Part shown: positions 24,381-55,744 of the stretch, one piece after another
Layout of the letters: each line of letters begins with the position of its first letter
Position numbering within the stretch: position 1 is the first letter of the stretch
NCBI RefSeq assembly: GCF_902506145.1
Contig: NZ_LR733519.1
Span: 310,001-374,000 of the forward strand
DNA from: Burkholderia sp. 8Y
Lineage (GTDB): Bacteria; Pseudomonadota; Gammaproteobacteria; Burkholderiales; Burkholderiaceae
Direction of reading: 5' to 3'
DNA: 64,000 nucleotides
The notes under the pieces: generated by a model
The model's input: only the letters and a program-made list of their open reading frames with translations
What the model was told of the DNA's origin: nothing
The model's database searches: none
Translations under genes and position numbers: made by a program

Positions 24381-26336
24381 TCACACGCGAAACGCACTGA
24401 CTGCCCGAGCGAGCCGCTCCGCCTGTTCGCGCAGTTCCGTGGTGGAATGCTCTGCTTCGCCGACGAGCGCCGCATTCTGCTGCGTCGCTTCGCCGATCTG
24501 CATGACCGCCGTGTTGACTTGCTCGATGCCGCAAGCCTGCTCGCGCGAGGCCACGCCGACTTCGCCGACGATCGCATTCACGCGTGCGACGTGCTCGACG
24601 ATGCCGCTCATCGTGCTGCTTGCTTCCTCTGCGATCTTGAAACCATGCGACACCTTGGTCGCGGACTCCGTGATTAACGCTTCGATCTCCTTGACCGCGC
24701 CCGCGCTGCGTTGCGCAAGCGCGCGGACTTCGGATGCGACCACCGCGAAGCCCTTGCCATGCTCGCCCGCGCGCGCCGCCTCGACGGCTGCGTTGAGCGC
24801 GAGGATATTCGTCTGGAACGCAATGCCCTCGATGGTCGCCGTGATGTCGGCGATGCGCCGCGCGGATGCGTCGATCTCGCTCATCGTTTCGACGACGCGC
24901 GCCACGGCCTCGCCGCCCGCACGTGCTGCGTCGGATGCGGACGACACCAGCGTTCCGGCCTGCTGGGTATTGGCCGCGTTCTGCTGCACGGTGGACGTGA
25001 TCTGCTCCATGCTGGCCGCTGTTTCTTCGACGCTCGATGCCTGCGTGGCGATGCGCGATGCGATATCGCTGCTCCCCGAGGCGATGCGCGCGGTGCCATC
25101 CGTCATGTCGGCGGATGCGCTTCGCACTTGCCCGACGATGCCGGCGAGCCCTTGCGAGACGCCGTCGATCGCGCGCATCAGGCGACCGATATCGTCCTCG
25201 CGCGCAGTGTCGATACGCACGGTCAGATCGCCTGCGGCAATACGCTCGGCAGCACGCGTCACTTCATCGATAGGATGACCAACGAGTTTCGCGACGGCAT
25301 AGAGCAACGCACCGACGAGCGCGGCGATCACGACCAACCCAAGCATCAGGAAACGGTTGCGGCTTGCGTGAATGCCGGCAAGCAGTTCGTCGCGATAGGC
25401 GATGCCGCCGATCATCCAGTTCCATTGCGGCACGGTCGTGAAGACGATTTCCTTCGCGCCGCCATGGACGTGTGCATCGGCGCCGGGAATGTCGGCGCCA
25501 TCGAACGCGAGCTTGCCTTCATGCGCGTCGAGCATGTGCTTGAAGGGCGCAACGCGCTCATCCGCCGCTTGTCCCTCGTTGCCGGGATGCACGAGCAGCT
25601 TGCCGCGATTCGGCCCGTTCGAGGCATCGACGACGAAGTAATAGCCGCTCTCGCCGATGGTCAGCTTGCGGATGTCGTCCTGTAGCGCGGACATCTCGGC
25701 TGTCACGTCCACGCCTACGAAGAGCGCGCCGATCACGCGGCCTGTCGCATCGGTCACGGGTTTATATTCGGTGATGTACTGCTTGCCGAAGAGCGCAGCC
25801 ATGCCGATATAGCTCTTCCCGGCGAGGATCGGACCGTAAGCGGGGCCTTTGCGGTCGAGCAGCGTGCCGATGGCGCGCGAACCGTCTTGCGTCTTGAGTG
25901 ACGTCGTCACGCGCACGAAGTCGTCGCCGGTGCGGGCGAAGATCGTCGATATGGCGCCGCTTTCTTCGAGGAACGCATCGGGAATGGAGAAGTCGCCATT
26001 CAGGGGCTTGTCGCCCGCATTCAGGCTCGGCGTCGCTGCGCCGGCGACATCGACGGTATGCGCTTCGTCGAGCGCGAAAGCGTTCGGCAGGCGATGCGAA
26101 AACATCGTCATGAAGCGCGCGACTTCGGCGTTCACCGCGGTGTCGTAGAGACGGATCATGGTGACGATCGAGCGGTTGTCGCTCTCGACGCGGGCGAGTG
26201 CGTGGGCGTCGACTTGCTCGCCTGCGGAGCGGGTGACGGCGAGCGTGAAGCTCGCGACGACGATAGCCGCGAGCGTGCACGCAAGAATGGCGAACTGGGT
26301 TCCCGCATTTGCGCGGGTGAAACGTTTGAAAGGCAT
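24381..26336 (-). CDS. Methyl-accepting chemotaxis protein
   Basis: 651 residues. N-terminal membrane helix (about 10-35), a large periplasmic Cache-type sensor (about 36-305, with [22 protein letters not shown] and [17 protein letters not shown]), a second membrane helix ([21 protein letters not shown]), HAMP, then the cytoplasmic coiled-coil with the hairpin tip [22 protein letters not shown] region. No NWETF-like CheR tether is present at the C-terminus. It should signal to CheA/CheW encoded elsewhere. A FliA-like promoter sits directly upstream. I use the ATG at 26336 rather than the GTG two codons earlier. Confidence 0.93.
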
Positions 26337-38701: not shown

Positions 38702-39445
38702 TTATGCGTCTTTGGCGCCGCGCTTTGCCGGCACTGCGGGCTTGACCGTCGCTAGGGTACGCTCCGCCAGCACCGCATCCCGCTTGCCCAACAGATGCCG
38801 ACGCAGGATGGCGGCCATGCGCGGACCATCTCGCGTTTCCAGTGCCGCGATCATTTCCTCGTGTTCGCGAATGGCGCTGTCCCACTTGGGCGTCTGAAAG
38901 TTGGAACGAAACCGCAGCGCCTGCAAACGACGGTTGATCGACACGTAGGTTTGCCGCAAAGCGGAATTGCGCGCGGCCTCGTTGATCTTGTCGTGAATCG
39001 CACGGTTGCGTGCGTAGTACCCGGACAGATCATTCTGCGCGCGGCATCCGACCATCTCTTCATGCAATGCCTTGATGTCCGCGATCTCGGCAGCGGTGAT
39101 GCGCTCGCACGCGAGCTCACCGGAGAACGCTTCCAGCCCGCTCATCAGTTCGAACATCTCGCGGATTTCGAGGTCGCTGATCTGCGCCACTGATGCGCCT
39201 CTGTTTGGCGCTATCTCGATCAGCCCTTCCGCAGCCAATACCTTCAATGCTTCACGCAAGGGCGTGCGCGAGATTCCCAGCGTCTCACAGAGCTTGCGCT
39301 CGTTCAGCTTGACCCCCGGCGCCAGCAAACCCTCGACGATGAAGCTGCGCAGATTGTCGACCACGGTGTCATGCAGGCGAAGCCGTTCCAGCTTCGGCAG
39401 CAGGGAGGACGACAAACGCGCCTCCGGTATGTCCATATTTTGCAT
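38702..39445 (-). CDS. GntR-family regulator (FCD subgroup)
   Basis: 247 residues. Winged helix at about 20-85: LHDTVVDNLRSFIVEGLLAPGVKLNERKL and LGISRTPLREALKVLAAEGLIE. The all-helical FCD domain follows, with the metal/ligand His and Asp set spread over EMFELMSGLEAF, NRAIHDKIN and RSAIREHEEM-like segments (here DSAIREHEEMI). GAGG lies 6 nt before the ATG. It is divergent from the aminotransferase-led cluster, and an imperfect copy of the intergenic palindrome overlaps its own start codon. I infer that it represses the cluster and itself; FCD ligands are usually small organic acids. Confidence 0.92.
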   Translation of the reverse strand: MQNMDIPEARLSSSLLPKLERLRLHDTVVDNLRSFIVEGLLAPGVKLNERKLCETLGISRTPLREALKVLAAEGLIEIAPNRGASVAQISDLEIREMFELMSGLEAFSGELACERITAAEIADIKALHEEMVGCRAQNDLSGYYARNRAIHDKINEAARNSALRQTYVSINRRLQALRFRSNFQTPKWDSAIREHEEMIAALETRDGPRMAAILRRHLLGKRDAVLAERTLATVKPAVPAKRGAKDA

Positions 39446-39450
39446 TCAAT
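39437..39450. promoter_or_regulatory. Imperfect operator copy over the GntR start codon
   Basis: ATTTTGCATTCAAT matches the left part of the ATTTTGCATGCAAAAT palindrome and overlaps the GntR ATG (39445-39443), well placed for autoregulation. Confidence 0.4.
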
Positions 39451-39570
39451 ACCTCGAAATCCGTTTTCGGCAATTCTAGCCCACCGACAGCGGAAAAAAC
39501 CGCCAGCGGGTTATCCCTAGGCCATTCGGCCTGATAAATCCTTTGCCGGCGCAACTCACTGCGTTAGAGT

Positions 39571-39586
39571 ATTTTGCATGCAAAAT
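39571..39586. promoter_or_regulatory. 16-bp perfect palindrome ATTTTGCATGCAAAAT
   Basis: Exact self-complementary 16-mer, 24 bp before the aminotransferase ATG and 126 bp from the GntR start. It is the strongest dyad in this divergent promoter region, and I take it as the primary GntR operator. Shorter TGCATGCA cores occur at 46350, 50742, 51776, 53203 and 55891. Confidence 0.6.
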
Positions 39587-39609
39587 TCAATTTCTAAGGA
39601 TGCGCACCC

Positions 39610-40830
39610 ATGCTGAAGCTCGACTTCCATCCCGCTGGCCGTCACTTTTTGCAGATTCCGGGGCCCAGCCCCGTTCCCGATCGCATCCTGCGTGCAATGA
39701 GCTACCCGACAATCGACCATCGGGGTCCGGAGTTCGGCGCGCTCGGGCTGAAGGTGCTCGACGGCATCAAGCGGATCTTCAAGACGACGCAGCCGGTGGT
39801 GATCTATCCAGCGTCGGGAACGGGTGCGTGGGAAGCGGCGCTGTGCAATACGCTCAGTCCGGGCGACGCTGTCCTCATGTACGAGACCGGCCACTTCGCG
39901 AGCCTCTGGAAAAAGATGGCCGAGAACCTCGGCCTCAAGCCGGAGTTCCTGGGCTTGCCCGGTATCGAAGGCTGGCGTCGCGGCGTGCAGCCGGACATGA
40001 TCGAAAAGCGTCTGCGCGAAGACACGCAGCATGCGATCAAGGCGGTATGCGTCGTGCATAACGAGACATCGACCGGCGTGACATCCGACATCGCCGCGGT
40101 GCGCCGCGCGATCGACGCCGCCGGTCATCCCGCGCTGCTGCTCGTGGACACCATCTCGGGTCTCGCATCCGCCGATTACCGTCACGACGAATGGGGCGTG
40201 GATGTCACGGTTTCGGGCTCGCAGAAGGGCCTGATGCTGCCGCCCGGCATCAGCTTCAACGCGGTGTCGCCGAAGGCGATCGAGGCGTCGAAGGAGGCCA
40301 AGCTCCCGCGTGCGTTCTGGGACTGGAAAGAGATCATCGAGATGAACAAGCAGGGCTACTGGCCCTACACGCCGAATACGAATTTGCTATACGGCCTGCT
40401 CGAAGCACTCGACATGATTCTCGGGGAAGGGCTCGACAATGTATTCGCGCGCCATCAGCGACTTGCTGCCGCGTGCCGTTCAGCGGTTACGGCGTGGGGA
40501 CTCGAGATTCAGTGCGCCGATCCCGCCGTGTATTCGCCGGTGCTGACGGGCGTGATGATGCCGGAAGGCGTCGATGCCGATGCCGTTCGCAAGCTCATCT
40601 ACGAACACTTCGACATGTCGCTGGGCACGGGCCTCGGCAAGCTGAAGGGGCGCATGTTCCGCATCGGGCACCTGGGCGATTGCAACGATCTCACGCTAAT
40701 GGCCGCGCTCACGGGATGCGAGATGGGCCTGAAGCTCGCGGGAATCGCGCTGAAGGACAGCGGCGTCGCCGCTGCGATGGACTATCTGACGAGCCACGTC
40801 GCAAAGCCCGAGTTGAAGGTGGCCGCGTGA
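39610..40830 (+). CDS. Class V aminotransferase, serine/aspartate-glyoxylate type
   Basis: 406 residues, fold-type I PLP enzyme. IPGPSPVPDRILRAM opens the fold, ASGTGAWEAALCNTLSPGD contacts cofactor, HNETSTGVTSDIAAVRRAID is the AGAT/SGAT hallmark, LVDTISGLAS holds the PLP-binding Asp, and SGSQKGLMLPPG carries the Schiff-base Lys206. The pattern resembles serine-glyoxylate aminotransferases and, among characterised enzymes I remember, BhcA of the beta-hydroxyaspartate cycle. It would aminate glyoxylate to glycine. The next gene overlaps its stop (GTGA). AAGGA precedes the ATG. Confidence 0.88.
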   Translation: MLKLDFHPAGRHFLQIPGPSPVPDRILRAMSYPTIDHRGPEFGALGLKVLDGIKRIFKTTQPVVIYPASGTGAWEAALCNTLSPGDAVLMYETGHFASLWKKMAENLGLKPEFLGLPGIEGWRRGVQPDMIEKRLREDTQHAIKAVCVVHNETSTGVTSDIAAVRRAIDAAGHPALLLVDTISGLASADYRHDEWGVDVTVSGSQKGLMLPPGISFNAVSPKAIEASKEAKLPRAFWDWKEIIEMNKQGYWPYTPNTNLLYGLLEALDMILGEGLDNVFARHQRLAAACRSAVTAWGLEIQCADPAVYSPVLTGVMMPEGVDADAVRKLIYEHFDMSLGTGLGKLKGRMFRIGHLGDCNDLTLMAALTGCEMGLKLAGIALKDSGVAAAMDYLTSHVAKPELKVAA

Positions 40831-41618
40831 ACGCCGTATTCGACGCTGCCTCCGTCGCCCGGCTATTCCTTCAGGCGAAGGCGCACCGCGCGAAGCTCGA
40901 CACGTTGCCAGAAGGCGTGCGCCCTTCCAATGCAGATGAAGCCTACGCTGTGCAAGAAGCAACGTTGCACGTGCTTCGCGCCGATGCCGCCGATGCGGGC
41001 GATGCACACGCGATCGGCGGCTGGAAGGTCGGAGCAAAATCGGCGGACGGTCCGATTCAGGGCGCGCTCCTGCCGGCGTATGGCGTGCATCGTTCGGGCG
41101 CGCATCTCTCGATGCAGGCTTTCGGCAAGGTCGCCCTGGAACTCGAAGTGGCGTTCACGTTCAATCGCCCGTTCGACGCTGGCAGCGGTCCGTACGACGA
41201 CGCGGAAGTCTTAGCGGCTATCGGTTGCATACATTCGACAATCGAGGTTGTTGCGAGCCGCTTCGCCGCGTGGCCCGATGTCGACAAACTCTGGCAGCTC
41301 GCCGATTTGCAAAACCATGGCGCACTGGTTGTCGGTGAAGGCGTGCCGTACGACGATGCGTTCGCGTTTGTATCGCCGACGATGACGTTCACGTACGACG
41401 GCGCGTCCCTATTCGACGCAGCGCCCGCGAATCCCGCAGGCGACCCACGCCGGCTGCTGACGTGGACGATCAATCACGCGGTATCCCGTGGACTCTCAGT
41501 GGAGAAGGGCACGGTGATCACGGCGGGTTCTTATACCGGCATGGCGTTTCCGGACAAACCTGGCACGGCGATCGGCGCGATCGACGGCCTTCCGCCGGTT
41601 GTTCTGCATTTTGAATGA
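40827..41618 (+). CDS. 2-keto-4-pentenoate hydratase-like protein (FAH superfamily)
   Basis: 263 residues from a GTG overlapping the aminotransferase stop, with AAGG upstream. Hydratase marks are ATLHVLRADAADAG..IGGWKVGAKS, ALELEVAFTFNRP (metal-binding Glu pair ELE), and GSYTGMAFPDKPGTAIGAIDGLPPVVLHF at the end. The family hydrates 2-hydroxypenta-2,4-dienoates or decarboxylates 2-oxo acids; no meta-cleavage genes accompany it. In this cluster it may instead act on another unsaturated or 2-oxo dicarboxylate. Confidence 0.85.
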   Translation: MNAVFDAASVARLFLQAKAHRAKLDTLPEGVRPSNADEAYAVQEATLHVLRADAADAGDAHAIGGWKVGAKSADGPIQGALLPAYGVHRSGAHLSMQAFGKVALELEVAFTFNRPFDAGSGPYDDAEVLAAIGCIHSTIEVVASRFAAWPDVDKLWQLADLQNHGALVVGEGVPYDDAFAFVSPTMTFTYDGASLFDAAPANPAGDPRRLLTWTINHAVSRGLSVEKGTVITAGSYTGMAFPDKPGTAIGAIDGLPPVVLHFE

Positions 41619-41690
41619 AGCGTGCCGGGATTCCGCATCAGGCATTAAGCATTAAGCATTCAAAAGACCACGCCCTCACTGACCGCGACA

Positions 41691-44600
41691 ATGCTCAACT
41701 CAACTACCGACCGTCTAGTCAAGCCGATACATCTGATGCCGGCTTCGGCGCGGGCTCGGCTCGCCTCGGCGCCCACGCCTCTGCAGGAACGTTTGCAGCG
41801 TGAGTTGAAGGGCGATGTGCTATTCGACCGCGCATCCCGCGGGCGCTATGCGACGGATGCATCGATCTACCAGATCATGCCGCTTGGCGTCGTGGTGCCG
41901 AAAGACCAGGACGACCTTCGCCTGGCCTTGGACGTAGCGCGTGCGCAAGGCGCGAGTGTCCTGGCGCGCGGTGCGGGAACGAGCCAATGCGGACAGACGG
42001 TGGGCGAGGCACTTGTTATCGACACGACGAAATGGCTGAACAATATTGTTCATTTCGACAAAAACGCTTGCACGGTCACCGTCGAGCCGGGCGTCGTGCT
42101 CGATCATCTGAATGCGTGGCTTAAGCCACATGGCCTGTGGTTTCCTGTGGACGTTTCGACGAGCGCGCAATGCACGATAGGCGGCATGGCCGGCAACAAC
42201 TCGTGCGGCTCGCGTTCGATGGAATACGGCATCATGGTGCACAACGTCGAGGCGATCGATACGATCCTCGCCGACGGTCACGATGCGCATTTTGGCAAGC
42301 TGTCCACGATGCAACTCGATGCACGCATGCGCGATCTCGTCGATGGCGTGCGCGGCATTGCAATGCGCGAACGCGATGAACTGCGCGAGCGCATTCCGAA
42401 GGTATTGAGGCGCGTGGCCGGCTATAACCTTGATCTGTTCGATTGTCAGAGCCCGCTGTCCTTCAGTGACGGCGAGCCCAATCTCGCGAACCTGCTGGTC
42501 GGCTCGGAAGGCACCCTTGCGTTCAGCCGTCAGTTGACGCTCAAGCTGTCGCCGCTGCCAGCGCATAAGACGCTCGGCGTCGTGAACTTTCCGAGCTTCT
42601 ATGACGCGATGGACATGACGCAGCACATCGTCAAGCTCGGGCCGGTCGCCGTCGAACTTGTCGATCGCACGATGATCGACCTCGCGATGTCCAATCCGTC
42701 GTTTCGTCCGGTCATCGAGAAGGCTTTGGTGGGCGATCCCGAAGCGGTGTTGCTGGTCGAATTCGCGGGCGCGGACCGCGATACGCAGTTAATGAAGCTC
42801 GCGCAACTTGTCGAGTTGATGGGCGATCTGGGCTTGCCCGGTTCGGTCGTCCAAATGCCTGAAGCGGGCCCGCAAAAGGCGCTATGGGAAGTGCGCAAGG
42901 CCGGGCTCAACATCATGATGAGCATGAAGGGCGATGGCAAGCCGGTGTCGTTCATCGAGGATTGCGCGGTGCCGCTCGAGCATCTCGCGCAATACACGAG
43001 CCGTCTGACTGAAGTGTTCAGAAAGCACGGCACCGAGGGTACATGGTATGCGCATGCAAGCGTCGGTACGTTGCATGTGCGACCTATCCTCGACATGCGA
43101 CGCGACGGTGCGGTCAAAATGCGCGCCATCGCGGAAGAAGCTGCGGCTATGGTGTGCGAGTACAAGGGCGCTTATTCAGGCGAACACGGCGATGGTCTCT
43201 GCCGTGGCGAGTGGGTCGCATGGCAATACGGACCGCGCATCAACGAAGCATTCCGCGACATCAAGCGGCTCTTTGATCCGGACAACCGCATGAGCCCGGA
43301 CCGCATCGTTGCTCCGCCAAAGATGGACGATGCCGCGAATTTTCGCTTTCCGCCGTCGTATCGCGAACGGGCCATTGCCCCGCAACTCGACTGGTCCGCG
43401 TGGAATGTGACGCGTGATCCGATGACGGGTATGGAAGGCGTCGCTGGCTCGGGCACCGATCTCGCGGAAGGACTCGCGAAGGCGGTCGAGATGTGCAATA
43501 ACAATGGTCACTGCCGCAAATTCGATGCGGGAACCATGTGCCCGAGTTACCGCATCACGAAGGACGAGCAGCACGTGACACGAGGCCGCGCGAATACGCT
43601 GCGCCTGGCTCTCTCAGGCCAACTCGGCGACGAGGGAGAAGGACTCGCGAGTCAGGACGTCAAGGACGTCCTCGACCTCTGCGTATCCTGCAAGGGATGC
43701 AAGCGCGACTGTCCGACGGGCGTCGATATGGCGCGCATGAAAATCGAAGCGCGTGCGGCATGGACAGCGCGCCATGGTCTGCGCATGCGTGAACGATTGA
43801 TTGCGTTCCTGCCGCGCTATGCGCCATTTGCAAGCCGCATGCCGTCGCTTGGCAGCACCATCGAAACGAACATGCCTTGGGCGGCGCGTTGGCTGAAGAC
43901 GAAGCTCGGACTCGCGCCGCAACGTGCGTTTCCTCGCATCAGGAAGCCTTTTCTCAGTGAAGCGGCAAGCAAGCCGGTCCTGTCTGCGACGAAGGAAGTG
44001 CTGCTCTTTGTCGATACGTTCAACAACTACATCGAGCCGGAAAACGCCCGCGCCGCGCAGCGCGTTCTGCAAGCGGCCGGCTACACGGTACATGTGAACA
44101 CGAAGAAGAGCGAGCGACCGCTCTGCTGCGGCCGGACCTTTCTCGCGGCTGGGCTTGTTGCTGAAGCCAAGGCCGAAGCACGCCGAACGCTCGATGCGCT
44201 GATGCCCTACGTGGAGCGCGGTGTAGCGATAGTCGGTCTGGAGCCTTCCTGTCTGCTGTCTTTACGCGACGAATTCCTCGGCTACGGATATGGAGAAATC
44301 GCTAATAAGGTGTCCGAAGCATCATTTCTGTTTGAAGAGTTTCTGGTGCGCGAGCGTGCCGCGGGACGATTCGATCTCGCGCTGAAGCCGCTGGACAAGC
44401 CGCGGGCGTTGCTTCATGGCCATTGTCATCAAAAGGCGTTCGACGCCGTGCGACCTGTCGAAGCAGTGCTCGGATGGATCCCCGAGCTGCACGTCGCCAC
44501 CATCGAGTCGTCGTGCTGTGGCATGGCCGGAAACTTCGGCTACGAAGCGGAGCACTACGAGGCCTCGCAAGCCATGGCGGAGTTGTCGCTGATGCCGGCG

Positions 44601-44732
44601 GTGCGCAAAGCAAGAGACGCGCGCGATGCCATCATCGTCGCGGACGGCACGAGCTGCAGGCATCAGATCGCGGACGGCGCGCAGACTGAAGCGTGGCATG
44701 TAGCGCGCGTGCTAGAGCGTGCGCTGGCATGA
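41691..44732 (+). CDS. FAD/4Fe-4S D-2-hydroxyacid dehydrogenase, YdiJ-like (1013 aa)
   Basis: Three modules in one chain. Residues about 60-300: FAD-binding PCMH domain (VLARGAGTSQCGQTVGEALVID, GGMAGNNSCGSRSMEYG, LLVGSEGTLAFS). About 300-560: FAD-oxidase C-terminal domain with HASVGTLHVRP and GEHGDGLCRGEW. About 595-690: ferredoxin-like clusters, CNNNGHCRKFDAGTMCP and CVSCKGCKRDCP. The rest has two CCG-type redox regions (PLCCGRTFLAAG and SSCCGMAGNFGYEAEHYE). The build matches membrane-linked D-lactate/D-2-hydroxyglutarate dehydrogenases such as E. coli YdiJ. No strong ribosome site precedes 41691. Confidence 0.9.
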   Translation: MLNSTTDRLVKPIHLMPASARARLASAPTPLQERLQRELKGDVLFDRASRGRYATDASIYQIMPLGVVVPKDQDDLRLALDVARAQGASVLARGAGTSQCGQTVGEALVIDTTKWLNNIVHFDKNACTVTVEPGVVLDHLNAWLKPHGLWFPVDVSTSAQCTIGGMAGNNSCGSRSMEYGIMVHNVEAIDTILADGHDAHFGKLSTMQLDARMRDLVDGVRGIAMRERDELRERIPKVLRRVAGYNLDLFDCQSPLSFSDGEPNLANLLVGSEGTLAFSRQLTLKLSPLPAHKTLGVVNFPSFYDAMDMTQHIVKLGPVAVELVDRTMIDLAMSNPSFRPVIEKALVGDPEAVLLVEFAGADRDTQLMKLAQLVELMGDLGLPGSVVQMPEAGPQKALWEVRKAGLNIMMSMKGDGKPVSFIEDCAVPLEHLAQYTSRLTEVFRKHGTEGTWYAHASVGTLHVRPILDMRRDGAVKMRAIAEEAAAMVCEYKGAYSGEHGDGLCRGEWVAWQYGPRINEAFRDIKRLFDPDNRMSPDRIVAPPKMDDAANFRFPPSYRERAIAPQLDWSAWNVTRDPMTGMEGVAGSGTDLAEGLAKAVEMCNNNGHCRKFDAGTMCPSYRITKDEQHVTRGRANTLRLALSGQLGDEGEGLASQDVKDVLDLCVSCKGCKRDCPTGVDMARMKIEARAAWTARHGLRMRERLIAFLPRYAPFASRMPSLGSTIETNMPWAARWLKTKLGLAPQRAFPRIRKPFLSEAASKPVLSATKEVLLFVDTFNNYIEPENARAAQRVLQAAGYTVHVNTKKSERPLCCGRTFLAAGLVAEAKAEARRTLDALMPYVERGVAIVGLEPSCLLSLRDEFLGYGYGEIANKVSEASFLFEEFLVRERAAGRFDLALKPLDKPRALLHGHCHQKAFDAVRPVEAVLGWIPELHVATIESSCCGMAGNFGYEAEHYEASQAMAELSLMPAVRKARDARDAIIVADGTSCRHQIADGAQTEAWHVARVLERALA

Positions 44733-44830
44733 AGCCGACCGATTGAAGCAGGACGTACACGAGCCAATAGATTCATTCATCGACACCACAACAGCGGACA
44801 CTTCCACGATCCGCGACAGGAGACGACGCC

Positions 44831-44884
44831 ATGAAAACCACCAGCAAACCACGCAGTCGACGCTTACGCCGACGCACGCAATAG
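44831..44884 (+). CDS. Possible 17-residue Arg-rich leader peptide
   Basis: AGGAG (44818-44822) with 8-nt spacing precedes an ATG opening MKTTSKPRSRRLRRRTQ, then TAG. It lies in the 288-bp gap before the MFS carrier. A strong ribosome-binding site on so short a frame suggests either a regulatory leader peptide or the truncated start of a lost gene. Arg codons are mainly CGC/CGA. Translation is not shown by sequence alone. Confidence 0.3.
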   Translation: MKTTSKPRSRRLRRRTQ

Positions 44885-45020
44885 ACACATAGGCGGTCAT
44901 CCGTTACCGATGATCGCCACCCATCGATCTTTAATTCGACGCACCAAGACGCTGTTCCGTATGTCGTGGCCAGGCGCCCTTGCGCTCGGCTCACGCACGC
45001 GATCACTCAAGGAGACGATG

Positions 45021-46307
45021 ATGTTCCGTCGAGCCACCACGCGCGTTCTGCTGCTGCTATGCGCGATGTATTTCATTACCTATATCGACCGCGTCAACGT
45101 CAGCACCGCCGCAAGCCAGTTCGGCGCGGAGCTCGGTCTGTCGCACACTCAGATCGGCTTCGTGTTTTCTGCATTCGCGTATCCGTATCTCGTCTTCCAG
45201 ATCATCGGTGGATGGGTGGGCGACCGCTTCGGGCCGCGCCGCACGCTAGCGGTGTGCGCCATCATCTGGGCCGGTGCGACGGTGCTGACAGGCTTGGCCG
45301 GGGGCTTCTTCTCGCTGATCGTCGCCCGCGTGCTGCTCGGCCTGGGGGAAGGTGCGACCTTCCCGACGGCGACGCGCGCGATGTCCAACTGGATGCCGGC
45401 CGACCAGCGAGGTTTTGCACAAGGTATTACGCATGCAGCATCCCGCATTGGAAATGCAGTCGCGCCGCCGCTGATCGTCTGGCTGATGATCGCGACGAGC
45501 TGGCGAGGTGCGTTCATCATCACCGGGGTCATCAGCTTCGCGTGGGCGCTGGTGTGGATGTTCTACTTTCGCGACAACCCGCGCGATCATCCACGCATCA
45601 CGGAAACCGAATGCCAGACCCTCGCCACGTATTCTGGCGTCAAGGAGCGCAAGGCCGTGCCGTGGCGCACCTTGCTCGGCCGGATGGCGCCTGTGACCGC
45701 CGTGTACTTTTGCTACGGCTGGGTTCTGTGGCTCTTCCTCGGCTGGATCCCGCAGTACTTCCTGCACAGCTATCACATGCAGCTTGGAAAGTCGGCACTG
45801 TTTGCATCCGGCGTGTTCTTCGCGGGCGTGCTCGGCGACTGGCTCGGGGGTTCGCTGACGGACCGTGTCCTGCGCAAAAGCGGCAACGTGCGACTGGCGC
45901 GCAATGTGATGGTCGGCGTATGCATGCTGCTGACGCTGTTGTCCCTCGCGCCGATCATGCTCGTAACGAATCTTTCGATCACGCTCGTCGCGCTGTGCCT
46001 GTCGGCTGGCTTCTTCTTCAACGAGATGACGATCGGCCCGATGTGGTCGGTGCCGATGGACATCGCGCCGAAGCACTCAGGGACAGCCGCTGGCATTATG
46101 AATTCCGGCTCGGCACTGGCTGCGATCATCAGCCCGGTCGTTGGCGGTTGGCTCATCGACCGCACCGGCAACTGGAACCTACCGTTCACGGTCTCGATGA
46201 TCCTGATGGCAGCGGGCATCATCCTCTCGTTCACGATGCGCCCCGACCGCGCGCTCGAAGTAGAAGAGGAAAAAACCGAGACGGTGCCTGCGAGCAAGTT
46301 CGTGTGA
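45021..46307 (+). CDS. MFS transporter, ACS family (sugar acid or dicarboxylate)
   Basis: 428 residues, 12 helices. CAMYFITYIDRVNVSTAASQFGAELGLSHTQIG and GLGEGATFPTATRAMSNWMP place it with glucarate/galactarate-type ACS carriers; RGFAQGITHAASRIGNAVAPPL follows. AAGGAG lies 6 nt before the second of two adjacent ATGs (45021). It lies inside the GntR-linked cluster, so it likely imports the cluster's substrate. The last 15 residues are acidic (EVEEEKTETV). Confidence 0.88.
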   Translation: MFRRATTRVLLLLCAMYFITYIDRVNVSTAASQFGAELGLSHTQIGFVFSAFAYPYLVFQIIGGWVGDRFGPRRTLAVCAIIWAGATVLTGLAGGFFSLIVARVLLGLGEGATFPTATRAMSNWMPADQRGFAQGITHAASRIGNAVAPPLIVWLMIATSWRGAFIITGVISFAWALVWMFYFRDNPRDHPRITETECQTLATYSGVKERKAVPWRTLLGRMAPVTAVYFCYGWVLWLFLGWIPQYFLHSYHMQLGKSALFASGVFFAGVLGDWLGGSLTDRVLRKSGNVRLARNVMVGVCMLLTLLSLAPIMLVTNLSITLVALCLSAGFFFNEMTIGPMWSVPMDIAPKHSGTAAGIMNSGSALAAIISPVVGGWLIDRTGNWNLPFTVSMILMAAGIILSFTMRPDRALEVEEEKTETVPASKFV

Positions 46308-46377
46308 CATGCGAGGCGTTCCTCGCGGCCGTTCAGTGACGTCCGGAAGTGCATGCAACATTCAATCAGGAGGCGAA

Positions 46378-47160
46378 GTGACGGAACCATCCATCGTGAC
46401 GGAGCGTGACGGCGATATCGCGACGGTCATCATCGACCGGCCCGAGAAACTCAACGCGATGACGAAGCACTTGTGGCAATCGCTCGGCGAGACTATCGAG
46501 GCGCTCTCCGCAGACGATGCGCTGCGCTGCATCGTGCTGCGCGGCGCGGGGGAAAAGGCGTTCTCACCCGGCAACGATATCGGCGAGTTCCGCACCGACC
46601 GGTCGAACGTCGAGCAGGCGCGTGCATACGGCGCGATCATGCATCGCACGCTCGCGGCGTTGAAGAACTGTCGCCACCCGCTGATTGCGATGATTCACGG
46701 CATCTGCGTGGGAGGCGGTCTGGAAATCGCGGCGATGTGCGATCTGCGTATTTGCGGCGAATCGAGCCGCTTCGGTGTACCGATCAAGAATCTCGGCCTC
46801 GTGATGGCACATGCGGAAATGGAGGGGCTCGTGCAGCTCGCGGGCCCTGCCGTCGCGCTGGAGATTCTGCTCGAAGGGCGAATATTCGACGCTGCGGAAG
46901 CCCTCGCGAAGGGGCTCGTCACGCGGATCGTCCCGGACGGCGAAGTAACGTCGCATACCTATGGCACGGCGCGCCGCATCGCCGATGGCGCTCCGCTGGT
47001 CGCACGCTGGCATAAAGAATTCGTGCGTCGCGTGATGGACCCGGCACCGCTCACCGACGACGAGCGCGACGAAGGCTTTGCCTGCTTCGGCACGGAGGAT
47101 TTCCATACCGGATACGAGGCGTTCCTGAGCAAGATCAAACCTGAATTCAAAGGGCGTTGA
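46378..47160 (+). CDS. Enoyl-CoA hydratase/isomerase (crotonase family)
   Basis: 260 residues. Crotonase marks: ATVIIDRPEKLNAMTKHLW, RGAGEKAFSPGNDIGEF (oxyanion hole), HGICVGGGLEIAAMCDLRI and the VPIKNLGLVMAHAEMEGLVQLAG helix. The usual hydratase Glu pair is not clear, so it may be an isomerase, hydrolase or lyase of acyl-CoA. The start is GTG with AGGAGG closely upstream. It is followed after one base by a CoA transferase gene, so acid activation and acyl-CoA processing are coupled. Confidence 0.88.
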   Translation: MTEPSIVTERDGDIATVIIDRPEKLNAMTKHLWQSLGETIEALSADDALRCIVLRGAGEKAFSPGNDIGEFRTDRSNVEQARAYGAIMHRTLAALKNCRHPLIAMIHGICVGGGLEIAAMCDLRICGESSRFGVPIKNLGLVMAHAEMEGLVQLAGPAVALEILLEGRIFDAAEALAKGLVTRIVPDGEVTSHTYGTARRIADGAPLVARWHKEFVRRVMDPAPLTDDERDEGFACFGTEDFHTGYEAFLSKIKPEFKGR

Positions 47161-47161
47161 A

Positions 47162-48427
47162 ATGGCATTCGGAATACCAGAAGATGCATCCGCGAAGTCG
47201 GCTCAAGCGACGAACGCTGGCAAGGGGCCGTTAGCAGGTATGCGCGTGATCGAACTCGCGCACATCATGTCCGGGCCCATCTGCGGGATGATGCTCGCGG
47301 ACATGGGCGCGGAGGTCATCAAGGTCGAGAAGATACCGAGCGGTGACGATTGCCGAAGGTTCGCGCCGATCCTCGAAAGCGGCGAATCCGCATCGTTCAT
47401 GATCGTGAACCGGAATAAGCGAGGCATCGCGCTCAACCTGAAGACTGAGGGCGGCCAGGACGTGCTCAAGAAGATGCTCGCGAGTGCGGACGTCGTCACC
47501 GAGAACTATCGGCGCGGCACGATGGAGAAGCTCGGCATGGGCTATGAAACGCTGAGAGCTGTCAACCCGGGTCTCATCTACTGCGCAATTTCCGGGTATG
47601 GACGTAGCGGGCCGATGGCGGACAAAGGCGGATTCGATCTTATCGCGCAGGGCATGAGCGGTTTGATGAGCATGACCGGCGAGCCTGGCCAGGCGCCGAT
47701 CAAGGCCGGCTCGCCCGTCACCGACATCAACGCGGGCATTCTCGCGGCCCTCGGCATCAGCGCGGCGTATGCGAGAAAGCAGGTCACGGGCGTGGGGCAG
47801 ATGGTCGATACATCGCTCTTTGAAGCGGGACTGCAGCAAATGTACTGGGCGTTTGCGAACTATTTCGCGGACGGGACGGTGCTGCCGAAGGCGGGCTCGG
47901 CGAACCCGACTAGCGCGCCGTATCAGGCGTTTCGCACCCGCGATGGCTGGGTGAACATCGGCGCGGCTAACCAAAGCAACTACGAACGATTAGTCGGTGT
48001 ACTAAATATTGCGGGATTAGTCGGCGATCAACGATTCCAGACCAATGCGGGACGGCTGAAGCATCGTGATGCGCTCGTCGAGATACTCACTGCGCGCCTG
48101 GTGGAGCGCACCACGGACGAGTGGCTCGCCGCGTTCGACGAGATCGGGCTGCCGAGCGGGCCGGTGCTGGGTGTTCCGGAGGCGTCATCGCACGAGCAAG
48201 CGTTGGCGCGGGGAATGATCGTCGAGACGGAGCATCCGCTCGCGGGCCGCATGCGCGGCATCGGCTTGCCGATCCATTTTTCGGATCCTGCTGCGCAGTC
48301 GTCGCGTCCAGCCCCGCTTCTCGGGCAGCACACGTCCGAAGTGCTGCATGAGTATGGTTTCGACGACGCACGCATTCAGGCGCTGAAAGATGAAGGCGCG
48401 ATTCTGGAGACGGAAGTGCCGGCGTGA
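47162..48427 (+). CDS. Class III (CaiB/BaiF family) CoA transferase
   Basis: 421 residues. GMRVIELAHIMSGPICGMMLADMGAEVIKVEKIPSGD is the family N-terminus. RNKRGIALNLKTEGGQ and NPGLIYCAISGYGRSGP follow, and KGGFDLIAQGMSGLMSMTGE contains the catalytic Asp that forms the acyl-anhydride. It moves CoA between carboxylates; CoA donor and acceptor are unknown. It begins one base after the crotonase stop, so the two act together. It ends before the aldolase relic. Confidence 0.92.
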   Translation: MAFGIPEDASAKSAQATNAGKGPLAGMRVIELAHIMSGPICGMMLADMGAEVIKVEKIPSGDDCRRFAPILESGESASFMIVNRNKRGIALNLKTEGGQDVLKKMLASADVVTENYRRGTMEKLGMGYETLRAVNPGLIYCAISGYGRSGPMADKGGFDLIAQGMSGLMSMTGEPGQAPIKAGSPVTDINAGILAALGISAAYARKQVTGVGQMVDTSLFEAGLQQMYWAFANYFADGTVLPKAGSANPTSAPYQAFRTRDGWVNIGAANQSNYERLVGVLNIAGLVGDQRFQTNAGRLKHRDALVEILTARLVERTTDEWLAAFDEIGLPSGPVLGVPEASSHEQALARGMIVETEHPLAGRMRGIGLPIHFSDPAAQSSRPAPLLGQHTSEVLHEYGFDDARIQALKDEGAILETEVPA

Positions 48428-48536
48428 AGCATCGTGCTCCGGTTCTTTGCATGCGGCATCTGGTATGTCGCATGCAGGGGAAGGCACGTCTTCCAGTGGC
48501 ACTTTGTTCAGTCGTCTCACGTCCACGAAGGATCAT

Positions 48537-49606
48537 GACGCTCGCTTCCCCGCCCGCCGCCCGCTTCGGCGACGCGCTCGCCGACGTCGCGCGCCTTCTC
48601 TACTGCTCGGCCTCAAAGCCTGCGATGCGAATCTCCGGCAGATGGCCTTGTTGGCGGCCCGTCATGGCGTCGCCTTACGGCCGCATTCAAAGGCGCACAA
48701 GTCCAGCGCGATAGCGCGCCGTCAGACGGGTGCCGGCGCGGTGGGCGTGTGCTGCCAGAAACTGTCCGCGGCTTGCCCGTTCGCGGCAGCGGGCATCGCG
48801 AGCATACACATCAGCAACGAGTTCGTCGGCGCGGACAAGCTCGCAATGGCTGTCGATCGCATCGCGCGTGCGCTTGTCGGTCTGCGTCGATGCGTTGCCC
48901 CGGGTCGTCGCTCTCGGTGACGTGGCGGCACGCGCGGGCGTACATATCGACGTATTCGCGGAAGTGAATGCGGGCCAGCGTCCTTGCGGCGTGACCCGTG
49001 ACGACGCGCTGCTGTCCCTCGCCGATGCGATCGCCGTGCAGCCGCGCTGGGCTTCTCAGGTATTCAGGCTCGCCACGGCGGCACGCAGCATATCGCCGAC
49101 TGGTAGGCGCGCAAGACGGCTGCGAGCCCTGGGGCAGAATGCGCGCGCATTTTGTATGCGCACTTGAGGCACGCGGCATTCAATGTACCGTGGTCACAGG
49201 CGGCGACACAGGCACCGTCGAGTTCGATGCCGCCAGTGGCGTCTATTCGGAAGTGCAGCCAGGGTCGTATCTGTTCATGGATGGCGACTCCGGTGGATTG
49301 ACGCGGCGCGACGAATCGCGCTGGCGGCAAAGGTTGTTCGTGTTGTCGACCATCATGGGTGCCTCGCGGCCTGCCGGCGGCGTATGCGATGTGGATCTCA
49401 AAGGACTGGCGGTGGACTCAGGATTGCCACGTAGCGTGCACTGGCTGAATGCATCGGACCAGCAGACCCTTACATACATTGCCGCCAACGACGAGCACGG
49501 AATGCTGGAAGCGAAGCTCGCGCCGCATGGGGATACGAGCGCACTGCGCGGCACGCGCATTCGCTTGCCGCCCGGCCATTGCGATCCGACCGTGAACCCC
49601 AAATGA
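48537..49606 (+). pseudogene. DSD1/D-threonine-aldolase-like PLP enzyme, broken by several frameshifts
   Basis: Pieces of one family member occur in order but in changing frames. First MTLASPPAARFGDALADVA from 48537. Then LLLGLKACDANLRQMALLAARHGVALRPHSKAHKSSAIARRQ-GAGAVGVCCQKLS (PLP-Lys region) in another frame. Then VHIDVFAEVNAGQRPCGVTRDDA in a third, and a HGGTQHIADW stretch ending at TAG. Last CTVVTGGDTGTVEFDAASGVYSEVQPGSYLFMDGD to the C-terminus at 49606. At least three indels and one stop are needed to explain it. Intact relatives (about 370-390 aa) cleave D-3-hydroxy amino acids to glycine plus aldehyde, including hydroxyaspartate aldolases. Assembly error is possible but would need several separate errors. 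Confidence 0.82.
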
Positions 49607-49672
49607 ATACGTGTGCTATCGCGACCAACGAGTCGTCGATATTTGGCTCATCGATGCGCGAGGATTGTCGCG

Positions 49673-50746
49673 TTAGCGAGCTTTCGACTGGTTGCTGGGA
49701 TAAATCGCGGCAATCAATGCATCGAGGTCGGTCACGATCAGGCCGACGACGAAATAAGCAACGTCGTGGGCCTGTCCGTTCAACCTGTTGCGCTCCAGCG
49801 CCTGCTGCAAGTGGTGCACGCACGCGCGCACGCGTTCGAGCTTCGTCTCGTCCGCCTGCGTGCCGGAGAGCGCGTCGGTCAGTGCTGCGAACGGCGCCTG
49901 CAAGGCGCGGCCCATCTCGCGATACCGAATTTTGTATGCATCGGGCTGCCCATGCGAGAGTGCCTTGCCGAGAAACTGCGCATCGCTGTGCAGACGGCGC
50001 AGAAAGGGCGCGGCCTTGTCGATTGCGTCGGAACGATGACTTTGCAAGGGCACGATGATGTGCTCGCGCTCGGCTTCGTGGAGCGCGTCGTCGAGTGCCT
50101 GCTGCGCCTGGGCGCTGCGTGCTTCGAGACGCGCGGCCTGGGCTTCATCCGCTTTTCCCGAAAGCTGGATATCAATGAGTTGACGCAGGCTGTCGAGCGT
50201 ATCCGCGACGCATCGGTGCGCGGTGCGAAGGGCGCGATTCGGCCAGATCGCGGCGACGATGAAAGCCGACGCTGCGCCAATGAGAATTTCCAGCACGCGA
50301 TGCAGCGGCCGCTGAAACGGCGATCCGCCGCCCGCCGGTATCAGCACGACGATCACCAGCGTCACGCAGGCCAGCCGCAGCGCCGGACGCTTCGCGGTCA
50401 GGACGGCGAGAGGTATCAGCGCGACGGCGAACACCGCGAGCGGCGAAGCGCCGTGAAGGATCGCCATCACCCCGAGCACGCCCGCCACGCCGCCAATGCA
50501 TGCGCCAATGACCTGATCGCGGGCGGTGCCGAGGGCTTGCGTGAGGCTCGGCTGAGTGACGACGACCAGCGTTGTGATGAGTGCCCAATAACCTTCCGGC
50601 AACGCGGCCAGGCGCGCGCCCCCATAGCTGATTGCACACGCGATGAGGGTGCGCACGAGACGGCGCGTTTCTGGGACACCGAAGGACAACCAGGCGGGCA
50701 TACTTCGTCGTTTTGAATTCTTTATCGTTTTGGCGGAATCTTGCAT
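49673..50746 (-). CDS. FUSC-family inner-membrane protein (aromatic acid exporter-like)
   Basis: 357 residues. Six hydrophobic segments fill the first half (RTLIACAISYGGARLAALPEGYWALITTLVVV, GACIGGVAGVLGVMAILHG, FAVALIPLAVL, LACVTLVIVVLIP, IGAASAFIVAAIWP), followed by a cytoplasmic helical domain. The PEGYWALITTLVV segment is the FUSC signature. The family exports fusaric acid or aromatic carboxylates, usually with an HlyD partner, absent here. The ATG at 50746 lies 11 bp after the LysE stop and inside a CTTGCATGCAAG palindrome, so expression is probably coupled to LysE. Confidence 0.82.
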   Translation of the reverse strand: MQDSAKTIKNSKRRSMPAWLSFGVPETRRLVRTLIACAISYGGARLAALPEGYWALITTLVVVTQPSLTQALGTARDQVIGACIGGVAGVLGVMAILHGASPLAVFAVALIPLAVLTAKRPALRLACVTLVIVVLIPAGGGSPFQRPLHRVLEILIGAASAFIVAAIWPNRALRTAHRCVADTLDSLRQLIDIQLSGKADEAQAARLEARSAQAQQALDDALHEAEREHIIVPLQSHRSDAIDKAAPFLRRLHSDAQFLGKALSHGQPDAYKIRYREMGRALQAPFAALTDALSGTQADETKLERVRACVHHLQQALERNRLNGQAHDVAYFVVGLIVTDLDALIAAIYPSNQSKAR

Positions 50747-54646: not shown

Positions 54647-55744
54647 TCAGGAAGTCGCCCTGGTTGCACGACTCCCGCGGCGCTCGATGACGCCGCACAC
54701 TGCGGCCGTCACTTGTGCGGTCGTCGCGTTGCCGCCGAGGTCGCCCGTGTGCAACGATTCGTCCGCAGTCGCCGCTTCGATCGCAGCCATGACACGCTTT
54801 GCGGCTTCTCGCTCGCCGAGATGCTCGAGCAGCATCACGACAGACCAGAACGTGCCGATCGGATTAGCGAGACCCTTTCCCATGATGTCGAATGCGGACC
54901 CGTGGATCGGCTCGAACATCGAAGGATGCCGACGCTCAGGGTCGATGTTGCCGGTCGGCGCAATGCCGAGACTGCCCGCGAGGGCGGCGGCGAGATCGCT
55001 CAGGATATCGGCGTGCAGGTTGGTCGCGACGATGGTGTCGAGCGTCGCAGGGCGGTTGACCATGCGCGCCGTGGCGGCATCCACCAACTCCTTGTCCCAC
55101 GTCACGTCGCTGAATTCCTGCGCGACTTCCTGCGCAATCTCGTCCCACATGACCATCGCGTGCCGCTGTGCGTTGCTCTTGGTGATGACGGTCAATAACT
55201 TGCGCGGACGCGACTGCGCGAGCTTGAATGCATAACGCAAAATCCGCTCGACGCCGGCGCGCGTCATGATCGAGACGTCGGTCGCGACCTCGAGCGCATG
55301 ACCCTGATGTACTCTGCCTCCGACGCCTGAGTACTCGCCTTCCGAATTCTCCCGGACGATCACCCAGTCCAGATCTTCCGGTCTGCAGTGCTTGAGCGGG
55401 GCGTCGATACCGGGCAGGATGCGCGTCGGGCGGACGTTCGCGTATTGATCGAGGCCCTGGCATATCTTCAGGCGCAGGCCCCACAGCGTGATGTGGTCCG
55501 GCACATCGGGGTCCCCCGCGGAGCCGAAGAGAATCGCGTCTTTCTCTCGAAGCGCGTCGAGTCCATCGGCGGGCATCATCACACCGTGCGCACGGTAATA
55601 GTCGGCGCCCCAGTCGAAGTTCTCGAATTCGAATGCAAAATCCCGCGTGGTTCGGGCGAGCGCGTCCAGGACCTGCCGTCCGGCGGGCACGACTTCCTTG
55701 CCGATGCCGTCGCCAGGGATCGTAGCAATGCGATACGTCTTCAC
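54647..55744 (-). CDS. Tartrate/D-malate dehydrogenase (decarboxylating family)
   Basis: 365 residues of the isocitrate/isopropylmalate dehydrogenase superfamily. ATIPGDGIGKEVVPAG is the N-terminus, SAGDPDVPDHITLWGLRLKICQGLDQYANVRP and ENSEGEYSGVGGRVHQGH are the substrate loops, TKSNAQRHAMVMWDE follows, and FEPIHGSAFDIMGKGLANPIGTFWSVVMLLEHLG binds NAD. The loop pattern is that of TtuC/DmlA, oxidising D-malate, tartrate or similar 2-hydroxy dicarboxylates. The GTG start is secured by AAGGAGGAG 4-6 nt upstream. It is monocistronic. Confidence 0.9.
   Translation of the reverse strand: MKTYRIATIPGDGIGKEVVPAGRQVLDALARTTRDFAFEFENFDWGADYYRAHGVMMPADGLDALREKDAILFGSAGDPDVPDHITLWGLRLKICQGLDQYANVRPTRILPGIDAPLKHCRPEDLDWVIVRENSEGEYSGVGGRVHQGHALEVATDVSIMTRAGVERILRYAFKLAQSRPRKLLTVITKSNAQRHAMVMWDEIAQEVAQEFSDVTWDKELVDAATARMVNRPATLDTIVATNLHADILSDLAAALAGSLGIAPTGNIDPERRHPSMFEPIHGSAFDIMGKGLANPIGTFWSVVMLLEHLGEREAAKRVMAAIEAATADESLHTGDLGGNATTAQVTAAVCGVIERRGSRATRATS

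Follow-up and report, generated by a model that had tools for sequence, protein, structure and literature searches.

Gene content and organization of the locus

The locus described here lies within a 64,000-nucleotide stretch of the genome of Burkholderia sp. 8Y (contig NZ_LR733519.1, positions 310,001 to 374,000), referred to below as the window and numbered from its first base. It comprises a gene for a GntR-family regulator on the minus strand and, diverging from it on the plus strand, an operon encoding an aminotransferase (AT), an FAH-family protein, a YdiJ-like dehydrogenase, an MFS carrier, a crotonase-like protein, a coenzyme A (CoA)-transferase and the relic of an aldolase, in that order. 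A previous sequence-only reading had listed these genes, and each one that it named was recovered in place; those from GntR to the CoA-transferase were matched with Pfam and NCBIfam models. The host is most closely related to Caballeronia. The nearest named matches of the window are megaplasmids of this genus, and in the top three records identity is 83-85% for the FAH-family protein and 90-92% for the dehydrogenase.

Conservation of the cluster and its core

We compared the window with 25 Caballeronia loci that had been fetched for the presence of a cluster-type FAH gene, a choice that selects for this gene. With length limits applied, the GntR regulator, AT, dehydrogenase and MFS carrier were found in all 26 loci, the FAH-family protein and the CoA-transferase in 25 each, the aldolase in 23 and the crotonase in 21. 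The 26th FAH match (L033) is one residue short of the length limit. The crotonase is missing or broken in five loci, the CoA-transferase is missing in one, and three, among them the window, have a missing or broken aldolase. Two further Caballeronia FAH matches, both at contig ends, were omitted from this count (G045, 69%, decayed; G055, 50% identical).

Outside this set, the AT and the dehydrogenase stay together. The AT was detected (E ≤ 1e-180) in 183 of 299 genomes of a family-level sample. Among 34 Burkholderiaceae loci hand-picked for diversity from the AT matches (35 stretches, one without an AT being omitted), the dehydrogenase is near the AT in 26, an FAH gene of at least 45% identity is present in 13 and an aldolase of at least 59% in nine. 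In an order-level sample of 349 Burkholderiales genomes, 97 carry the AT (E ≤ 1e-150), 100 carry the dehydrogenase (E ≤ 1e-280) and 90 carry both; the two genes lie no more than 10 kb apart in 84 of these 90. In five of the other six they are on different contigs, and in the sixth (G575, C19), the sole same-contig case, they are 116 kb apart. Conversely, when 20 loci of the order sample were fetched around the dehydrogenase, the AT was nearby in 18. The Fisher value for this co-occurrence ignores relatedness, and we do not use it as a probability. The near inseparability of the AT and the dehydrogenase in the order sample is the strongest fact of this analysis.

An alignment of ATs was also used to search named genomes more widely, and the best 80 of 594 confirmed candidates were evaluated; this set includes metagenome bins, which may be misassigned, and its gene tallies depend on the similarity limits and include weak matches. 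Within these 80 loci we counted the dehydrogenase in 60, GntR in 48, TctC in 31, a crotonase-like gene in 31, TctA in 23, the CoA-transferase in 19 within 9 kb (23 anywhere in the locus), TRAP genes in 18 (19 anywhere), an MFS carrier in 12, GlcG in eight, an amidase in eight, FAH in three and hydA in two; DSD1 and Bhc genes were found in none. Of the 49 loci with both flanks complete, 39 have the dehydrogenase with the AT and 32 have a carrier of carboxylate type (TctA, TRAP or MFS). The titles of the 80 AT records include Alpha-, Beta- and Gammaproteobacteria, Acidobacteria/Terriglobia, one Opitutaceae and one Thermodesulfobacteriota bin. For the AT-dehydrogenase pair itself, the observed range is Proteobacteria and one Acidobacteria bin (L179). 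In Nonomuraea the two genes are side by side, with a dehydrogenase just 37% identical (H60, H126).

The arrangement differs among these bacteria. Limimaricola has GntR and dehydrogenase genes on one side and an AT-TRAP-crotonase-CoA-transferase series on the other; Acidiphilium has a GntR gene and a CoA-transferase-crotonase-BASS-AT series without the dehydrogenase; and in Tateyamaria the AT-dehydrogenase pair, together with TRAP genes and a GlcG-like gene, adjoins bhcABCD. The carriers vary from locus to locus, and all come from organic-anion families: the anion:cation symporter (ACS) branch of MFS here, TRAP, tripartite Tct or BASS elsewhere. The cluster is thus conserved, and more widely than the sequence-only reading had reported, with the transporter exchanged and the two enzymes mostly retained. 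The conserved unit consists of the AT, the dehydrogenase, GntR and a carboxylate transporter. The remaining genes are accessory: crotonase and CoA-transferase are optional, and FAH and aldolase are rare outside Burkholderiaceae. The observation behind the earlier list is confirmed in a more general form; as a conserved unit the full list does not hold, since it mixes this smaller core with accessories such as FAH and DSD1.

In Bradyrhizobium (L135-L140), two tandem AT paralogues lie beside the dehydrogenase, a GlcG-like gene, a crotonase and a Tct transporter.

The aminotransferase is distinct from BhcA and SgaA

The AT (39610 to 40830, plus strand) is a class-V pyridoxal phosphate (PLP)-dependent enzyme of the Pfam family Aminotran_5. 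Its best NCBIfam match is the model for BhcA, the L-aspartate--glyoxylate aminotransferase of the beta-hydroxyaspartate cycle, at 455 bits with a cut-off of 650. On the same model an annotated BhcA (L215) scores 754 bits, and an aminotransferase encoded beside malyl-CoA lyase and malate-CoA ligase, which we take to be the serine-cycle enzyme SgaA, scores 600. BhcA and SgaA share 52-56% identity, more than the 43-48% that links the window AT to either (43-46% to three BhcA, 45-48% to three SgaA); its gene neighbors also differ from those of SgaA. In an unrooted tree of 35 sequences, a branch with 100/100 support sets all 29 cluster ATs apart from the six comparators, of which three are BhcA and three SgaA. 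When a very distant outgroup (end branch 10) was added, the root was placed inside the cluster ATs, so that these may not form a single clade. Moreover, 172 cluster ATs have 16 near-invariant positions at which all six comparators differ; residues specific to the cluster ATs include H12, R123, Y261 and R327. On both its score and its place in the tree, the AT is neither BhcA nor SgaA.

The families nearest to the AT, BhcA and the serine-cycle aminotransferase, both use glyoxylate, also according to their annotation. By analogy with these two neighbors, glyoxylate would be a likely acceptor for the AT as well, and to that extent its earlier designation as a glyoxylate-type aminotransferase is borne out at the level of the family. 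The host genome contains no second AT of this type above 27% identity; some other Caballeronia carry a second one at 40%.

In two loci (L125, L127) the AT lies beside hydantoinase, amidase and racemase genes or urate genes, without the dehydrogenase. These contexts suggest a second use of the AT.

The dehydrogenase keeps a D-2-hydroxyacid active site

The dehydrogenase gene (41691 to 44732, plus strand) encodes a fused FAD/4Fe-4S protein of 1013 residues with FAD_binding_4, FAD-oxidase_C, Fer4 and CCG domains. The best NCBIfam family is YdiJ, a D-2-hydroxyglutarate dehydrogenase, but the score, 479 bits, is far from the cut-off of 1350 (the Limimaricola homologue scores 503), and identity to E. 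coli YdiJ is 30%. The two proteins share the fused architecture and the catalytic residues; however, YdiJ has Phe in place of Tyr453, and its gene has no AT gene as a neighbor in E. coli K-12.

The residues R402, H455, H462, E498 and H499, assigned to C1-carboxylate binding, metal binding and the catalytic base in D-2-hydroxyacid dehydrogenases of the VAO/PCMH family, are invariant in 139 of 139 alignment rows, which represent 134 loci, some from one genome, with five sequences entered twice. The human D-2-hydroxyglutarate dehydrogenase offers a reference in which the residues for the C1-carboxylate, the metal, proton abstraction and the C5-carboxylate have been described (PMC7801405), and upon mapping, those of the first three groups are all kept. 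Of the four residues of the human enzyme that contact the C5-carboxylate (PMC7801405), Tyr432 is retained as Tyr453 and Asn443 is replaced by Arg464 in the 134 loci. The enzyme keeps the D-2-hydroxyacid site and is predicted to catalyze D-2-hydroxyacid oxidation, as had been proposed earlier; Tyr453 and Arg464 moderately favor a substrate with a second carboxylate group. Arg464 is also found in E. coli YdiJ, which is reported to be strictly specific for D-2-hydroxyglutarate (PMC9504171).

Two fused proteins at 35-36% identity, from C. grimmiae and Rhodococcus, also carry the arginine equivalent to Arg464. The first is encoded on a C. grimmiae conjugative plasmid (L222:3928-9151), where a LysR gene lies next to genes for a DUF1338 protein, this second fused FAD/Fe-S enzyme and an aminotransferase of the PLP type, the whole flanked on both sides by insertion sequence elements; the genes resemble what we take to be the branch of lysine breakdown from 2-aminoadipate to 2-oxoglutarate. 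On a Rhodococcus ruber plasmid (L223:2472-6892), a hydroxyacid-oxoacid transhydrogenase gene directly precedes the gene for the other fused dehydrogenase, and the pair is likely a D-2-hydroxyglutarate recycling pair. Both the DUF1338 and the transhydrogenase contexts presumably belong to D-2-hydroxyglutarate metabolism.

Regulator and predicted operator

The regulator gene (38702 to 39445, minus strand) encodes a GntR/FCD-family protein (Pfam GntR 62.6 bits, FCD 87.5 bits). Between it and the divergent AT gene, 3' of a TAGAGT element and 23 bp upstream of the AT start, lies the operator-like palindrome ATTTTGCATGCAAAAT (39571 to 39586). It is the sole match in the window at up to two mismatches, and 100 shuffles gave none. 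A second, imperfect site, TTTTGCATTCAA, is located at the GntR start codon (39438 to 39449). Of 61 Burkholderiaceae intergenic regions between GntR and AT, 48 contain the central 14 bases of the palindrome without a mismatch and ten more with a single one. In the order sample, the best match deviates at one base in seven of 16 loci and at more than one in the other nine, with TTTTGTATACAAAA-like forms. Some loci in these counts come from the same genome.

At the genome level, ATTTTGCATKCAAAAT was found in 31 of 41 Caballeronia genomes, once in 30 and twice in one (G051); a backward control of the same pattern had no match in the 41 genomes. Thirty of the 32 sites precede an AT gene, and in 29 of the 31 genomes every site is directly upstream of one, including both sites of G051. 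The two exceptions are perfect palindromes, one in G055 (C38:84104-84119) on a contig without an AT match and one in G056 (C411:15173-15188), a genome without an AT. Because the palindrome nearly always stands directly before the AT, the pattern fits a dedicated local GntR repressor with the palindrome as its predicted operator, and the adjoining GntR gene of the sequence-only reading thereby gains a candidate binding site. There are only hints of other members of the regulon. A promoter scan returned two sigma-70-like sites, both within the dehydrogenase gene and none upstream of the operon, fewer than in shuffled sequence.

The genome with two sites, G051, carries on contig C19 two AT copies (24704-25955 and 98204-99455) that lie 73 kb apart in opposite orientation, with equal scores (91% to the window AT) and each with its own palindrome: either a recent duplication or an assembly artefact.

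Accessory genes

The FAH gene (40827 to 41618, plus strand) starts with a GTG codon at 40827 that overlaps the AT stop codon, the two genes sharing four bases (GTGA). The product, a 2-keto-4-pentenoate-hydratase-like protein, matches the family weakly: it scored 20.0 bits on Pfam FAA_hydrolase (cut-off 23.9) and 36.9 bits on 2-oxopent-4-enoate hydratase, in both cases as an open reading frame with a spurious N-terminal extension. E105, E107 and E140, which we take to bind metal, are invariant in 11 of 11 aligned sequences. The remaining Caballeronia FAH matches (38-48%) are a paralogue that the genus carries (44% for the host copy); it adjoins a chemotaxis receptor and PrkA and is uninformative on function.

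The MFS carrier (45021 to 46307, plus strand) is of the ACS type; its top subfamily is TIGR00893, at 249 bits with a cut-off of 395, and a carboxylate-type carrier, as predicted earlier, is indeed what the family points to.

The crotonase-like gene (46378 to 47160, plus strand) begins with GTG and encodes an ECH_1 protein. At the two positions that we take to be the catalytic glutamates of enoyl-CoA hydratase, the first Glu is present in 48 of 64 sequences, including that of the window, and the second in none (63 Ile, one Val; FGVPI in the window). Since the second Glu is absent throughout, ordinary hydration is an unlikely activity for this protein, and decarboxylation or other crotonase chemistry is possible.

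The CoA-transferase (47162 to 48427, plus strand) is a class III, CaiB/SUGCT-like enzyme: it scores 424 bits on CoA_transf_3, and the GFD/GYD motif, presumably holding the catalytic Asp of the class, is found in 55 of 56 homologues. Its top relative in the PDB is SUGCT, the succinate--hydroxymethylglutarate CoA-transferase (298 bits), but it reaches 333 bits on the NCBIfam succinate--glutarate model, which has a cut-off of 750.

The aldolase relic (48597 to 49673, plus strand) is a frame-shifted gene of the DSD1 type (D-threonine/3-hydroxy-D-aspartate aldolase). Compared with the intact gene of Caballeronia grimmiae, it falls into three pieces in two frames (48597-49139, 53%; 49145-49597, 72%; 49602-49673, 75%), and it extends about 70 bp beyond the end that the sequence-only reading had given it. 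Because the gene is intact in 23 of the 26 Caballeronia loci, a local loss seems to account for its broken state in the window. The intact C. grimmiae protein matches the D-threonine aldolase 4v15 at 369 bits and then the 3-hydroxyaspartate aldolase 6qkb at 272 bits. On the NCBIfam model for BhcC (cut-off 690), intact aldolases of three relatives score 361-377 bits, and a control BhcC (L124) scores 752.

A proposed pathway and its alternatives

The cluster is real and widely conserved, and it probably serves the uptake and oxidation of a small hydroxy-acid whose product passes to the dedicated AT, with tartrate-like acids as our best guess for the substrate. In general form, we tentatively favor a substrate-induced module for the uptake and C2-oxidation of a 2-hydroxy-dicarboxylate, followed by transamination with glycine/glyoxylate. 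A small 2-hydroxy-dicarboxylate would relieve GntR repression and be imported; the YdiJ-like enzyme would oxidize an R-configured C2 hydroxyl group to give a 2-oxo-dicarboxylate, its electrons passing through the Fe-S domain to the respiratory chain; and the AT would then exchange keto and amino groups, with glycine and glyoxylate as the partner pair. FAH and the CoA-transferase/crotonase pair would be optional side routes. Since the AT is dedicated and nearly inseparable from the dehydrogenase, the oxo acid is suggested to be a less usual compound, for example oxaloglycolate formed from tartrate or mesoxalate formed from tartronate, rather than oxaloacetate or 2-oxoglutarate, which housekeeping transaminases handle.

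Oxaloglycolate fits best with the aldolase of the relatives and with the beta-hydroxyaspartate cycle neighbors in Tateyamaria, and mesoxalate is the alternative. This leads to a more specific version, which we consider possible but rather unlikely as it stands: a widespread and so far undescribed aerobic route for tartrate-class acids in which C2 oxidation by the Fe-S flavoprotein and transamination would give 3-hydroxyaspartate (or aminomalonate), and the intact aldolase of the relatives would split 3-hydroxyaspartate into glycine and glyoxylate, a pair that would be cycled to carry the amino group. The sequence-only reading had inferred degradation of a C4-C5 hydroxy or unsaturated dicarboxylate to glyoxylate or a 2-oxo acid, and overall it is partly supported: a C4-C5 hydroxydicarboxylate is a plausible substrate, while the route to glyoxylate is still conjecture.

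Several observations weigh against this proposal. At the thresholds used, 10 of the 100 dehydrogenase genomes in the order sample lack the AT, and 10 of the 49 AT loci with full flanks have no dehydrogenase nearby; some AT loci lie beside hydantoin or purine genes. The C5-carboxylate residues Thr390 and Lys401 of the human D-2-hydroxyglutarate dehydrogenase are replaced by Leu and Ile/Val, and a large hydrophobic residue at the Thr390 position has been described for glycolate/lactate enzymes (PMC7801405). The arginine at position 464 occurs in nine of nine fused enzymes compared and may be a trait of them all instead of a mark of specificity. The scheme assigns no step to the CoA-transferase or the crotonase. 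The tartrate version has a stereochemical gap, since the products of class-V transaminases are normally L-amino acids and DSD1-type aldolases act on D ones. The tartrate dehydrogenase-like gene of the window is outside the operon, and one was seen in just two of the best 80 AT loci.

The alternative that survives best is a housekeeping or scavenging role, in which the dehydrogenase would be a second oxidase of D-2-hydroxyglutarate or D-malate and the AT would return a central oxo acid to its amino acid. The family assignment to YdiJ and the plasmid contexts of the related fused proteins speak for it, but the distance from YdiJ in score and identity speaks against it, and for such oxo acids a dedicated AT would be superfluous; we regard this role as possible, if improbable. 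A published parallel is the DhdR-D2HGDH operon of Achromobacter denitrificans, also of the Burkholderiales, in which a GntR regulator adjoins a D-2-hydroxyacid dehydrogenase (PMC8651671). Its operator, GTTATCAGATAAC, differs from the palindrome described here, and no adjoining gene of hydroxycarboxylic-acid metabolism is reported for it (PMC8651671). We therefore set aside an operon of the DhdR type, on the basis of the published operator.

Glycolate/glyoxylate utilization is a more doubtful explanation. In this case the dehydrogenase would be a one-piece glycolate oxidase, the AT would make glycine, and the aldolase would optionally condense it with glyoxylate. Glyoxylate use by the relatives of the AT, GlcG-like genes near the AT in eight of the best 80 loci and the Tateyamaria neighborhood are all compatible with this idea. 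However, 23 of 25 module-bearing genomes tested have a match above the cut-off of the model for GlcE, a component of the classical glycolate oxidase, and for this reason we set aside a stand-in glycolate oxidase as the main explanation. Moreover, Tyr453 and Arg464 stand where glycolate/lactate enzymes reportedly have small or hydrophobic residues (PMC7801405).

In our view there is a slim chance that the CoA-transferase and crotonase form the center of a CoA-dependent pathway, with an unsaturated or branched dicarboxylate (itaconate, mesaconate or maleate) as its substrate. The CoA-transferase resembles SUGCT, which has a dicarboxylate range, and the CoA-transferase/crotonase pair has TctA as a neighbor in several Burkholderiales and TRAP genes in Limimaricola. 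Against a central role, the crotonase is full length in only 21 of the 26 Caballeronia loci and lacks the second hydratase glutamate, the two genes occur together in just six of the 34 other Burkholderiaceae loci, and the operon genes include no CitE-type lyase, which was looked for among these genes only.

It is very unlikely that the AT mainly serves nitrogen salvage from ureides or hydantoins, with a secondary link to the dehydrogenase: in Defluviimonas, Aminobacter, Oceanimonas and Zobellella the AT does have hydantoinase, amidase, Asp/Glu racemase or urate genes as neighbors, but in the best 80 loci such contexts are a minority (hydA in two and an amidase in eight, versus the dehydrogenase in 60). 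Least probable is a partial beta-hydroxyaspartate cycle with the AT as BhcA, the aldolase as BhcC and the dehydratase and reductase encoded elsewhere, which we reject: BhcB-like genes (best 40-44% identity, orthology unclear) do occur elsewhere in 10 of 10 genomes tested, but the best BhcD match is 34%, with none in three of the 10 genomes at E 1e-20, the aldolase is absent from all 80 AT-anchored loci and broken in the window, and by the curated models, which annotated members exceed, the AT and aldolase are not orthologues of the cycle enzymes to which the earlier reading had likened them.

To our knowledge, no known pathway explains the partnership of the AT and the dehydrogenase. The earlier statement that no described pathway has this gene set agrees with our literature search, in which the listed titles and abstract beginnings (one result list, seen for 20 of 313) did not describe it. 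The pair is present in 90 of the 349 Burkholderiales genomes sampled and, with exchangeable transporters, in other classes too; the module thereby points to a nutrient used by many bacteria. Its solution would sharpen two annotations, "aminotransferase class V-fold PLP-dependent enzyme" and "FAD-binding and (Fe-S)-binding domain-containing protein". A tartrate-class route, if true, would also give a physiological job to enzymes of the DSD1/D-threonine aldolase type; the function of D-threonine aldolases has been called largely unknown (PMC4401734).

The tartrate dehydrogenase-like gene of the window (54674 to 55744, minus strand) lies 5 kb downstream of the aldolase relic and is 91.6% identical to a gene of Caballeronia sp. 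SL2Y3.

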